Source: Porphyrobacter sp. IPPAS B-1204 (GTDB lineage Bacteria; Pseudomonadota; Alphaproteobacteria; Sphingomonadales; Sphingomonadaceae). Taken from it: a stretch of DNA of 64,000 bases. Below, in pieces: positions 10,645 to 54,741 of this stretch. Within the stretch, counting starts at the first letter, position 1, and each line of letters starts with the position of its first letter. The notes beneath the pieces were generated by a model, which had not been told where the DNA came from, ran no database searches, and saw only the letters and a program-made list of their open reading frames with translations. The position numbers were made by a program, and so were the translations under genes. The DNA lies in assembly GCA_003724185.1 (NCBI GenBank), contig RHGM01000003.1, positions 248,001-312,000 on the forward strand, read 5' to 3'.

Positions 10645-10851
10645 TCAGCGCACCTTCCTGCTGCGTTCGAGCACGGGACGCTGGCCTTCGGCATCAAGGG
10701 CACCCGAAACGGGCTCGTCCTGATTGCGTTCGCTGATCGGGCCATCGCCCGGCGTGTCCTGCTGGCGGTCCAGGTGATCCTGTGCCGGGGCGTTTTCGGT
10801 CTTCAGCTTCAGCGCCTTTTCGGAGATGTCTTTCTGCGTTTTGTCGGTCAT
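10645..10851 (-). CDS. Small hydrophilic protein of unknown function
   Basis: 68 residues, highly charged (Lys/Asp/Glu/Gln/Arg) with no hydrophobic core, so probably disordered in the cytoplasm. The start, MTDKTQKDISEKALKLK, is mildly helical and the rest is rich in Asp-Gln-Pro-Gly. It leads the operon with the HPF-like and host-attachment genes, and its stop touches the next start codon. That tight spacing is the best reason to accept it as a gene. I recognise no family. Confidence 0.6.
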   Translation of the reverse strand: MTDKTQKDISEKALKLKTENAPAQDHLDRQQDTPGDGPISERNQDEPVSGALDAEGQRPVLERSRKVR

Positions 10852-46523: not shown

Positions 46524-47969
46524 ATGGCGGATATTGATTGCCACCCCGAAGCGCAGGAAGACGCGCGAATCGTCATGCTGATCGATGATGAGCCTGCCCA
46601 ATCGCGGCTGATCACCGCGATCGCTGCGCGTGATGGCTGGCGCACGATTGTTGCCTCCGATGCGGAAACCGCCATCGCGATGCTCGGCACCCGTGAGGGG
46701 ATGCAGTTGTCCGCGATCCTGCTCGATCAATGGGTGCCCGGCGATGATGCCTGCCAGCTGATCGCCGAGCTGAAATCGCGCCGCCCTGCCCTGCCGATCC
46801 TGATGCTCACCACCAGCGCCTCGCCGCTGCTGGCGGTGGAAGCGATGCGGGCGGGCGCTTCGGATTACCTCGTGAAGCCCGTCTCGCCCGACCGGCTGAT
46901 GGAGGCGCTGCGGACCGTCACGGCCCGTCAGGCCCCGCGTGACGAGCTCGCCCCGCTGACCGAAAAAATGTCCGCCAGCCTCGATTTCGACGCGATGATC
47001 GGCACCGCCCCGCAGTTCCGCGCCGCCCTTGCGCAGGCCGCCAAGGCTGCACGCGGGCATGGCCACGTGCTGATCGAAGGCGAAACCGGTACCGGCAAGG
47101 AAATGCTGATGCGCGCGATGCACGGCGCATCCCCGCGTTCCAAGGAATCGCTTCGGATCGTCAACCTGGCATCGGTTCCGCCCGGTTCGATTGATTCGGT
47201 GCTGTTCGGGCATGAACCCGGCAGCTTCCCCGGCGCCTTTGATCGCCAGATCGGCGCCTTCCAGCATTGCGACGGCGGCACGCTGATTCTCGACGAGATC
47301 GACCGCCTGACCCCGGTGCTGCAGCAACGCCTTGCCGAAGCCCTCAAAAGCGGGATCATCCGTCCGGTTGGGGCAAGCTATGGCTTCCGCGTCGATGTGC
47401 GGCTGCTGGTGACCAGCAATGTCGGGCTTGATCGGATGGTGCAGGCCGGACAGTTCGATGCAGGGCTTGCCGCGAAGCTTGGCGCGACCCGGATCGTGCT
47501 GCCACCCCTGCGTGATCGCACTGGCGATATTCCCGCGCTAACCCGTCACTTCCTTGCCCGCATTGGCGAACAGCCCGGCCTGAACCACCTTTCGGTGTCG
47601 GATTCTGCGCTGGCGCTGCTCGCCGCCTATGACTGGCCGGGCAATGTCCGCCAGCTGCAATCGGTGCTGTTCCGGGCCGCGGTCTACTGCGAGAACAATT
47701 CCCTGACCGCCGACAGCTTCCCGCAGCTCTCCGAAATGCTCGGCGAACAGGGCAGCGTCACCGTGGCAAGCGCGCATGAGGGCGTGGGCATCATGCTCTA
47801 CACCCCCGACGGCAACCTGCGCCCGCTGGAGGAGATCGAGGCCGACGTGATCCGCCTTGCCATCGGCCATTATCGCGGGCGCATGACCGAAGTGGCGCGC
47901 AGGCTGGGGATCGGGCGCTCGACGCTCTATCGCAAGCTGAGCGATCTGGGGATTGATAACGCGGCTTGA
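46524..47969 (+). CDS. Sigma-54-type response regulator with degenerate GAFTGA
   Basis: 481 residues. Receiver domain (about 15-130) has the phosphoacceptor D68 in ILLDQWVPG, T96/S98 in LMLTTSAS and K118. The AAA+ domain (about 155-390) has Walker A GETGTGKE (186-193) and Walker B GGTLILDE (251-258). A Fis-type helix-turn-helix is at the C-terminus (MTEVARRLGIGRSTLYRKL). The sigma-54-contact loop is GSFPGA (233-238) in place of GAFTGA, and the usual REDLYYRLN stretch is DAGLAAKLG. It may therefore bind DNA and respond to phosphorylation without activating sigma-54. Confidence 0.88.
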   Translation: MADIDCHPEAQEDARIVMLIDDEPAQSRLITAIAARDGWRTIVASDAETAIAMLGTREGMQLSAILLDQWVPGDDACQLIAELKSRRPALPILMLTTSASPLLAVEAMRAGASDYLVKPVSPDRLMEALRTVTARQAPRDELAPLTEKMSASLDFDAMIGTAPQFRAALAQAAKAARGHGHVLIEGETGTGKEMLMRAMHGASPRSKESLRIVNLASVPPGSIDSVLFGHEPGSFPGAFDRQIGAFQHCDGGTLILDEIDRLTPVLQQRLAEALKSGIIRPVGASYGFRVDVRLLVTSNVGLDRMVQAGQFDAGLAAKLGATRIVLPPLRDRTGDIPALTRHFLARIGEQPGLNHLSVSDSALALLAAYDWPGNVRQLQSVLFRAAVYCENNSLTADSFPQLSEMLGEQGSVTVASAHEGVGIMLYTPDGNLRPLEEIEADVIRLAIGHYRGRMTEVARRLGIGRSTLYRKLSDLGIDNAA

Positions 47970-52288: not shown

Positions 52289-53461
<1,173 letters not shown>

Positions 53462-53470
53462 TTATCCACA
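53462..53470 (+). promoter_or_regulatory. Perfect DnaA box upstream of ccrM
   Basis: TTATCCACA, an exact match to the DnaA-binding consensus TTATNCACA, lies 31 bp upstream of the ccrM GTG. It is 5 bp from the first GANTC site. It suggests that replication initiation and ccrM expression could be linked here. Confidence 0.5.
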
Positions 53471-53475
53471 GGCAT

Positions 53476-53721
53476 GAGTCTTTGAAGAGTCCGCGTCAAG
53501 CGACTAATTTTGCGCAGATTATGGTTGACAGGGGGTTAAGACCCCACCTCTGGCGCGGAACGAAGCAAGACCGGCACAAGATGTTGAGTCCGGCGCTTAT
53601 TGCGGGACTCCAGATGCAGGGGTGTGGCGAGGAAGACTCATCTGCGCGCCATCGGCGCGGCGGCACGGTCGGCTCAGGGGTTCGCCGGGATATTTGGATT
53701 CCACGTGGGCCTGCGCGAATC
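53476..53721. promoter_or_regulatory. Cluster of seven GANTC methylation sites upstream of ccrM
   Basis: GANTC occurs at 53476, 53487, 53586, 53606, 53635, 53697 and 53717. Two are within 60 bp of the ccrM start, the pattern reported to control ccrM in Caulobacter by methylation state. The last two lie in the 3' end of the neighbouring membrane-protein gene. Confidence 0.6.
53525..53539 (-). promoter_or_regulatory. Possible CtrA-binding motif in the ccrM upstream region
   Basis: On the minus strand the sequence reads TTAA-N7-TCAA followed by CCAT. This is one base from the CtrA consensus TTAA-N7-TTAA. It lies about 95-110 bp upstream of the ccrM start. CtrA activates ccrM in Caulobacter. Confidence 0.35.
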
Positions 53722-54093
53722 GAAAAGCCGCATGATCGGCGGCGGCACATCGGTGCAGGTCTTCCCACGGGGCTGGTCTTCACACAGCCGGTTTTCGTGC
53801 CATGCGGTCATCATGACCATGGCGACAAGTGCCCCGAGAACGATGAGGCAAAGGAGGTTGATCCGCGCCAACCAGAGGATTTTGTCTCGCGCTGCCGCTC
53901 GCAAGGCCCGCCACAGGGCGAACGCGGCCAGCAACACCGGTCCGCCGATATGAAATGCGGGAACATCGAGCGCGGTAACAATATTCGTCCCAGCCAGGAC
54001 CAAAAGTGTGATCAGCGCAAGGAAGTAGCGGAAAAGATAACGCCCGCTCCACAGCAGCGAGGTTTCGGTGCGGTCGAAACGATGCTGCCCCAT
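53674..54093 (-). CDS. Small membrane protein, unknown
   Basis: 139 residues starting MGQHRFDRTETSLLWSGRY. Three hydrophobic helices (about 24-42, 50-62 and 76-93: YFLALITLLVLAGTNIVTAL and INLLCLIVLGALVAMVMM) are followed by a Cys-containing tail (ENRLCEDQPRGKTCTDVPPP). It would be an inner-membrane protein with a periplasmic C-terminus. It sits between rnhB and ccrM on the same strand, 24 bases after rnhB. I recognise no family. Confidence 0.6.
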   Translation of the reverse strand: MGQHRFDRTETSLLWSGRYLFRYFLALITLLVLAGTNIVTALDVPAFHIGGPVLLAAFALWRALRAAARDKILWLARINLLCLIVLGALVAMVMMTAWHENRLCEDQPRGKTCTDVPPPIMRLFDSRRPTWNPNIPANP

Positions 54094-54117
54094 CTTGCTC
54101 GCCTCGCCTTGCCGCGA

Positions 54118-54741
54118 TCAGATCAGCTGCAACTGCGACACTGGGGCAAAGCTGCGGCGGTGCAACGGGGTCGCGCCGTGCACGCGTAGCGCCTCCATGT
54201 GTTCCGCAGTGCCATAGCCCTTGTTGCGCTCCCACCCGTAGTGGGGGTGCGCCGCGGCGGCTTCCAGCATCATCCGGTCACGCCATTCCTTGGCAATGAT
54301 CGAAGCTGCGGAGATGCAGGGTTCGATCCCGTCGCCGCCGACGATCGCGCGGGCGGGCCAGCACCAATCTGCGCAGCGGCCCTGCGGGGTCATGTTGCCG
54401 TCAATCAGCACCGCGCCCGGCGCCTCCCCCAGAGCGCCGGCCAGTGCGGCGACGGCGCGGGTCATGGCCAGCATGGTCGCCATGAAGATGTTGACCCGGT
54501 CGATCTCTGCCGGTTCGATCACAGCCACCGCCCAGCCACAGCTTGTCCGGATCGCTTCGTCGAGAACGGCGCGACGCTTGGCGGAAAGGCGCTTGGAATC
54601 GTCGAGCCCCGCAGGTATCGCCTCCCCCAGAACCACCGCCGCGGCCACCACCGGCCCGGCCAACGGTCCGCGGCCTGCCTCGTCGACACCGATGACGATC
54701 GTATCGCCTGCGTGCCTGAAACCCGGAGTGACCCCTAGCAT
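54118..54741 (-). CDS. rnhB: Ribonuclease HII
   Basis: A 207-residue nuclease that cuts RNA in RNA-DNA hybrids, including single ribonucleotides. The catalytic start is IVIGVDEAGRGPLAGPVVAA. The next acid is in VLIDGNMTPQGRC, and the DEDD pattern is completed by ASIIAKEWRDRMM with the YGWERNKGYGT patch. The ATG at 54741 overlaps the ATG of the divergent lipoprotein dehydrogenase gene within the same CATG. Upstream in-frame sequence does not look like RNase HII. Confidence 0.92.
   Translation of the reverse strand: MLGVTPGFRHAGDTIVIGVDEAGRGPLAGPVVAAAVVLGEAIPAGLDDSKRLSAKRRAVLDEAIRTSCGWAVAVIEPAEIDRVNIFMATMLAMTRAVAALAGALGEAPGAVLIDGNMTPQGRCADWCWPARAIVGGDGIEPCISAASIIAKEWRDRMMLEAAAAHPHYGWERNKGYGTAEHMEALRVHGATPLHRRSFAPVSQLQLI

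Follow-up and report, generated by a model that had tools for sequence, protein, structure and literature searches.

The window, the whole 64 kb stretch of DNA analysed here, encodes a CcrM-type GANTC adenine methyltransferase on its reverse strand, with features upstream of the gene that are listed in Table 1. The ccrM product features an N6_N4_Mtase domain (Pfam, 1.9e-65) and a C-terminal RAMA domain (2.8e-20), and it matches the NCBIfam CcrM model NF050803 with 599.9 bits (1.2e-180), which is under the model cut-off of 830. By homology, this protein probably methylates GANTC, and the depletion of GANTC in the window (63 sites versus 258.5 ± 14.9 in dinucleotide shuffles of the 64 kb) fits such an activity; GANTC scarcity has been reported for Alphaproteobacteria (PMC3973325). 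The ORF located between rnhB and ccrM encodes a membrane-protein-like product. A tblastn search for this ORF across related ccrM loci (L002-L168, E ≤ 1e-3) returned its own genome only, and in most relatives rnhB lies directly upstream of the conserved block, with no 139 aa ORF in between.

Table 1. Features at and upstream of ccrM, in window coordinates
Feature	Position	Strand	Basis or remark
ccrM	52289..53431	-	CcrM-type GANTC adenine methyltransferase, GTG start as listed
-10-like hexamer CATGCC	53471..53476	-	17 bp from -35-like element; placed from class-wide pattern
GANTC site 1	53476..53480		Overlaps -10-like hexamer
GANTC site 2	53487..53491		In spacer between -35-like and -10-like elements
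-35-like element TTGACG	53494..53499	-	Sequence; conserved TTGAC-N-GANTC arrangement
CtrA-like box TTAA-N7-TCAACC	53523..53539	-	One mismatch from TTAA-N7-TTAA
Conserved upstream block (model R1)	53555..53640	-	Model match, conservation
NrdR-like box, promoter-proximal, GCACAAGATGTTGAGT	53574..53589	+	12/16 to consensus
GANTC site 3	53586..53590		Outer end of proximal box arm facing distal box
GANTC site 4	53606..53610		Distal box arm facing proximal box
NrdR-like box, distal, ACTCCAGATGCAGGGG	53607..53622	+	Weak, 9/16 counted by eye
GANTC site 5	53635..53639		Conserved, unexplained by promoter or boxes
ORF, 139 aa	53674..54093	-	No Pfam or NCBIfam family
GANTC site 6	53697..53701		Within ORF 53674-54093, not conserved
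GANTC site 7	53717..53721		Within ORF 53674-54093, not conserved
rnhB, ribonuclease HII	54118..54741	-	Upstream neighbour, Pfam/NCBIfam

An initial annotation of this DNA had described seven GANTC sites upstream of the methyltransferase gene, and a site search of the window located all seven (sites 1-7). Its estimate that about one site would occur by chance agrees with base composition, from which 0.79 sites are expected in 246 bp; at the window's own rate, with the cluster excluded, the expectation is 0.22. The Poisson probability of at least seven sites in 246 bp is 3.6e-9, or ~9e-7 across 260 windows, and the second-densest separate 246 bp stretch carries three sites. Inside an ORF at 46524-47969(+), whose product by eye resembles an NtrC-type sigma-54 response regulator, three GANTC sites lie within 145 bp (47145-47289), with a fourth at 47601. 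Density was also assessed in a sample comprising the window and twenty 20 kb stretches of the same contig (C8), which covers 464 kb of 3.55 Mb (13%) and contains 429 sites. At least four sites per 250 bp were found in two clusters of seven sites each, which precede ccrM and a ribonucleotide reductase (RNR) gene, respectively, while all remaining 250 bp stretches of the sample have at most three. Similar density before many unrelated genes, which the annotation had named as evidence against its reading, did not occur in the sampled 13%, where the RNR gene is the sole equal.

Comparable regions were examined in a class set of 66 of 175 matching genomes (60 families, from the 26 best-scoring loci of other families and 40 loci that each add one more family) and in an order set of 20 of 22 matches from other families of the same order. 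Within 400 bp upstream of their ccrM matches, genomes of the class set contain on average 3.76 GANTC sites, with at least five in 27/66 genomes and none in 8/66, whereas seven sister pentamers of the same form have means of 0.76-1.55. For the order set (n = 20), the mean is 5.3 versus 0.55-1.4 for the sister pentamers. Many members of the class therefore have a GANTC-rich region before ccrM, among which the window is unexceptional, and the suggestion of an unusually high density for ccrM is not supported. The spacings between sites are not kept in other families.

To assess conservation within the family (Sphingomonadaceae), ccrM loci were collected by whole-genome searches and from an organism-named collection (Erythrobacter, Porphyrobacter, Qipengyuania and others; best 80 of 413). 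Anchoring of the upstream regions left out 19/110 loci in one set and 17/188 in another, and the genomes compared are related, hence the counts are not independent. Site spacings toward ccrM are near-fixed (29, 20, (19), 69-99 and 11 bp) in most of 77 distinct upstream regions, some of which lose sites or gain extra ones. Sites 5, 4, 3, 2 and 1 of the window belong to this pattern. Sites 6 and 7 sit inside the ORF that has no match in relatives, so the conserved array consists of five sites, and the proposal of a single seven-site array is not supported for these two. The annotation had further proposed that ccrM is controlled by its own methylation, and this is fitted by an array that is non-random, near-unique in the sampled 13% and conserved, while joint action of all seven sites is not supported.

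Model R1 and alignment A1 were built from 69 of 95 distinct upstream blocks; the GANTC letters are invariant in A1 because its 95 source blocks were picked by a pattern that demanded three GANTCs. This selection does not affect the family counts given here for R1 matches, for box arms in register and for the 53635 position. When searched against the window's own genome, R1 found a single strong place, at ccrM (E = 2.6e-20), with the next match at 0.2, and it matched at E ≤ 0.01 in 106/119 family genomes. The same ccrM place also gave a reverse-strand match (E = 0.0016), a sign of dyad symmetry. Outside the GANTC sites and the NrdR-like boxes, conserved letters of the 53555-53640 block include ACACC beside the distal box and TTTCGTTC beside the proximal box.

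The two sites closest to ccrM fit the arrangement TTGAC-N3-GANTC-N6-GANTC, which recurs in other alphaproteobacterial families. The looser pattern TTGAC-N1..4-GANTC-N5..8-GANTC occurs in 99/118 family, 13/20 order and 20/66 class upstream regions, with a Markov expectation of 0.00. In these regions, position 2 of the hexamer that follows TTGACN at 17 bp is A (98/99 family, 12/13 order and 19/20 class) and position 6 is often T (52/99, 12/13 and 20/20, respectively), a preference that suggests a -10 element carrying the second GANTC. This suggests that the proximal GANTC doublet is part of a predicted sigma-70-type core promoter. The corresponding hexamer of the window, CATGCC, is without the final T, and a generic promoter scan reported no promoter at the CATGCC/TTGACG place in the window. 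When the -35 element was ignored, GANTC doublets 10-13 bp apart were found in 17/20 order regions (random placement mean 9.0, largest 15) and in 28/66 class regions, the latter inside the random range (mean 17.8, largest 30; 300 runs). The leader position implied by the initial annotation is not borne out for the proximal pair, which is spaced as if located in the spacer and on the predicted -10.

The extended GcrA motif YGAKTCG is absent from this promoter, as site 1 reads TGAGTCT and site 2 reads AGAGTCC; this motif was also not found in Brevundimonas (PMC7987155). The genome does carry a gcrA gene, and by sequence site 2 has the position, between -35-like and -10-like elements, that characterises a GcrA-type methylation-sensing promoter. 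A 9-mer at 53462-53470(+), TTATCCACA, which we take to be a perfect DnaA box, sits at the predicted start region of ccrM and is present in 109/118 family, 0/20 order and 3/66 class upstream regions. The CtrA-like pattern occurs in 59/118 family, 1/20 order and 5/66 class regions, and two class genomes (L114 and L115) feature a perfect CtrA-type box, TTAA-N7-TTAACC, near ccrM beside GANTC sites. Activation of ccrM by CtrA has been described (PMC3667746).

The conserved block contains two 16 bp palindromes that resemble the binding sites of NrdR and are offset by 33 bp, with a spacer of 17 bp. On the ccrM strand, the block holds GACTCAACATCTTGTG, whose 16-mer ACTCAACATCTTGTGC agrees at 12/16 positions with the NrdR box consensus, ACACWATATATWGTGT. 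A best match of at least 12 was obtained in 90/118 family, 9/20 order and 15/66 class upstream regions (class examples include ACACAATATCTTGTGT and ACACAAGATATTGTGT), versus 1.7%, 4.8% and 2.2% of mononucleotide shuffles, respectively. The genome encodes NrdR (TIGR00244, 170.7 bits versus a cut-off of 124.65). NrdR boxes are usually found over or next to the promoter (PMC9110341), whereas those seen here start 75 bp away from the predicted -35-like element, and the pair spans 75-123 bp upstream of it.

NrdR binds two boxes and favours spacers of 15-17 bp, which equal offsets of 31-33 bp (PMC12051234). In profiles of mean score around the best box, the second place lies at -33 for family regions and at 32 both for the order set and for a control set of RNR upstream regions (2 bp register shifts aside), whereas the class set (n = 66) has no clear peak at 31-33. 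Box pairs scoring at least 20 at these offsets were found in 109/118 family (Markov 5/590), 18/20 order (0/100), 25/66 class (5/330) and 20/30 RNR control regions (3/150), and in 0/400 chunks of the window's own genome. Offsets of 36-38, 41-43 and 26-28 bp gave 41, 22 and 3 pairs of 118 in the family, 0, 0 and 2 of 20 in the order, 9, 11 and 15 of 66 in the class and 11, 3 and 5 of 30 in the RNR control; the 41-43 offset is not a clean control because NrdR binding extends to spacers of 24-27 bp (PMC12051234). These counts lend good support to a 31-33 bp spacing in family and order, and modest support in the class. The spacer is 16 bp (32 bp offset) in 17/18 order pairs. Binding requires G-C pairs, whose inversion lowers it 50-fold or more, and NrdR residues D15 and R17 lie near bases in the major groove (PMC9110341). 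According to our position mapping, the required pairs are C4 and G13 of each box, and all four positions are kept in 98/109 family, 17/18 order and 17/25 class pairs.

The 464 kb sample was scanned with a weight matrix derived from 40 boxes, plus their complements, of RNR promoters in other genera. The top-scoring pair was that at 53574 and 53607 (score 21.9), followed, an overlapping variant aside, by the genome's own RNR locus (14.9) and a pair at 12.6. The best matrix pair lies upstream of ccrM in 79/79 named loci and in 16/22 of loci L111-L138; with composition-corrected scores, this was the case in 17/23 (including L111, which belongs to the window's family). In controls, the single best box lies upstream of ccrM in 79/79 named and 15/23 other loci, and pairs at wrong offsets do so in 45-78/79 named and 10-13/23 others. 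Since these controls perform nearly as well, the best-pair test supports the box and not the spacing. R2, a covariance model, was made from 19/20 RNR box pairs (the L273 pair was dropped for its shifted register but kept in the weight matrix). It had no match at E ≤ 10 in the window's own genome, the RNR gene there included, and none at E ≤ 1 in 50 ccrM loci, and this test is uninformative.

Two of the conserved GANTC sites are built into the facing arms of the boxes. The family arms GAGTC and GACTC, which are one base from the NrdR arms ACAC/GTGT, are in register in 75/109 and 100/109 pairs; at least one is in register in 105/109 and both in 70/109, where chance would give ~6 register hits. 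In the class set, 8/25 pairs have at least one GANTC in the facing arms (12 register hits versus 1.1 expected), while only 1/18 order pairs has one. Boxes also occur without CcrM sites, as exemplified by L120, where a pair scores 24 and the 400 bp upstream are free of GANTC. The site at the 53635 position is present in 105/109 family upstream regions with a box pair. The central base of each site is fixed: G in 105/105 at 53635 and, on the ccrM strand, G in 75/75 at 53606 and C in 80/80 at 53586 (the proximal arm was counted in 80/109 with the register shifted for offset 31, and in 100/109 unshifted). By comparison, 22% (93/422) of a GANTC sample from the own genome has a G or C centre. Choosing box pairs by NrdR score slightly favours such a centre at the two box sites, but not at 53635. 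As CcrM ignores the central base, another reader probably recognises these letters. The 20 bp between sites 3 and 4 is as expected from the 33 bp box offset. General helical phasing of the sites, with spacings near multiples of 10 bp, was considered but is not claimed here, as promoter geometry and the box offset account for the 11 and 20 bp spacings and other families do not keep the spacings.

The other dense cluster comprises seven GANTC sites at L208:10740-10921, with an eighth at 10655, and lies ~170-440 bp ahead of the gene for an RNR alpha subunit (L208:8460-10484, -) of NrdA type (NF006577, 1046 bits versus a cut-off of 620). Within L208:10655-10921, one GANTC sits inside an NrdR-like box. 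A box reading GATTCA-N2-ATCTAGTG was found in 10/30 family RNR upstream regions, all among the 15 closest RNR homologues, and six of the ten have a second box 32-33 bp on; others feature plain boxes, such as GACACTATAGCTGGTG. The ccrM and RNR upstream regions have a 16-mer pattern in common, but as both places went into its making, its two exact hits carry no weight; a pattern made from the ccrM box only gave one perfect match and two that differ at a single position, versus 13 for a reversed control. In Caulobacter, nrdA is an essential gene that is down-regulated without CcrM and has a conserved promoter GANTC (PMC3973325).

The elements described above, their conservation, spacing and register, and the RNR box with its embedded GANTC are sequence observations; the NrdR-like boxes with two of the sites, the DnaA box and the CtrA-like box go beyond the initial annotation. 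It is fairly probable on this basis that ccrM has a GANTC-bearing promoter together with an NrdR-like operator into which CcrM sites are built. A more tentative reading, quite possible but short of probable, is that the NrdR regulon of Alphaproteobacteria has long included ccrM, with an operator that carries CcrM sites in the NrdR arms, as at an RNR gene of the Erythrobacter group, and that mutual exclusion or sensing by NrdR and CcrM at the same base pairs constitutes an epigenetic switch coupling methylation, dNTP supply and fork passage. Here, we infer that NrdR and GcrA bind, that m6A has any effect and in which direction control runs. In the predicted core promoter, one GANTC would lie in the spacer and another on the -10, about one helical turn apart. 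With GANTCs at these places, promoter strength should depend on methylation state, which would probably be read by GcrA. NrdR is an ATP/dATP-sensing repressor of RNR genes. At high dATP it would occupy the operator, damp ccrM and shield two GANTCs from CcrM. Fork passage would use up dNTPs and leave hemimethylated DNA, leading to the release of NrdR, upon which the GANTC-bearing promoter would fire via GcrA, CtrA or both, and fresh CcrM would then methylate operator and promoter. In this scheme, methylation may block NrdR or may only compete with it, and it may act on the promoter in either direction.

An alternative that we consider unlikely, though credible, is control by GcrA and methylation only, where all five conserved GANTCs would be GcrA or methylation-sensing sites and the likeness to NrdR boxes incidental. 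The presence of a gcrA gene is consistent with this, as is the fact that GANTC enrichment is the most widespread feature before ccrM, and in Caulobacter a group of regulated promoters is distinguished by a GANTC located between -35 and -10 (PMC4287350). However, conservation extends to letters outside GANTC, including the critical NrdR C and G in GANTC-free arms (invariant A1 columns C23 and G65), the boxes persist where GANTC is missing from them (L120; 17/18 order pairs), and a matrix trained on RNR promoters picks out this very place. That resemblance to RNR promoters of other genera, along with the 32 bp offset of 17/18 ccrM pairs in the order set, also argues against a transcription factor other than NrdR binding the conserved dyad. 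We regard such a factor as rather improbable, even if it would accommodate the poor match of the distal box to NrdR and the conserved ACACC, site 53635 and downstream TTTCGTTC, which NrdR leaves unexplained.

The dyad symmetry seen in the reverse-strand self match could reflect an RNA transcribed from the block or the terminator of rnhB, but this is very improbable, as the four predicted pairs are all invariant with no covariation and no Rfam match was found at E ≤ 1. An RNA element was accordingly rejected, based on the Rfam search of 52900-54300 and on the 69-block alignment, which lacks covariation. Chance or compositional clustering with no regulatory role is scarcely believable: GANTC is over-represented in alphaproteobacterial intergenic DNA generally (PMC3973325) and two of the seven sites are not conserved, but the cluster has P ~ 9e-7 in the window and one equal in 464 kb, its site positions are conserved, and GANTC is enriched relative to sister pentamers.

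The timing of ccrM expression relative to replication is a key issue in the cell cycle of Alphaproteobacteria, and the usual answers to it are CtrA, GcrA and DnaA. If the preferred reading of an NrdR operator with embedded CcrM sites is correct, the conserved element would add a direct dNTP-pool input to ccrM and make methylase and RNR answer to a common sensor. The presence of CcrM sites in the arms of the operator leads to a prediction at the level of single sites, namely NrdR-dependent local hypomethylation, and the recurrent two-GANTC core promoter offers a defined place at which the suspected feedback of methylation on ccrM could act. A literature search for NrdR and ccrM gave no such link in titles and the beginnings of abstracts, and one combining NrdR box, Alphaproteobacteria and ribonucleotide reductase found nothing. 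In the main text of PMC5343134, on comparative NrdR regulons, the words ccrM, methyltransferase and methylase do not occur; it is possible that ccrM was predicted earlier as an NrdR target in the supplements of that paper, in RegPrecise or by Rodionov & Gelfand 2005. GANTC sites before cell-cycle genes were counted by Brilli et al. 2010 (PMC2877005), with no conclusion drawn in the available excerpt, and excerpts of PMC11514494, PMC7987155 and PMC3667746 yielded no passage on GANTCs upstream of ccrM.

Several features of this locus are comparable to known systems. Caulobacter ccrM has GANTC sites in its leader. Sites just upstream of ccrM are common to both organisms, but the Porphyrobacter locus has two in the predicted core promoter and three 75-140 bp further upstream, unlike the leader sites of Caulobacter. 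There, methylation acts "most probably" on ccrM itself (PMC3973325), and start sites with a GANTC between -10 and -35 form a separate timing group (PMC4287350). The predicted promoter resembles GcrA/sigma-70 promoters in its core-promoter GANTC (PMC4287350) and in the presence of GcrA, but differs in having two GANTCs about one turn apart, with the second on the -10, and in the absence of YGAKTCG (PMC7987155). The box pair shares 16 bp palindromes, C4/G13 and an offset of 31-33 bp with the NrdR operators of RNR genes (PMC12051234, PMC9110341), whereas its target is a DNA methyltransferase, its facing arms are CcrM sites, and it lies upstream of, not over, the predicted promoter. Repressor sites that contain GANTCs and hide them from CcrM are also found with MucR (PMC5172544), in comparison to which the repressor at ccrM would belong to a different family, and its occlusion of GANTCs is a prediction.
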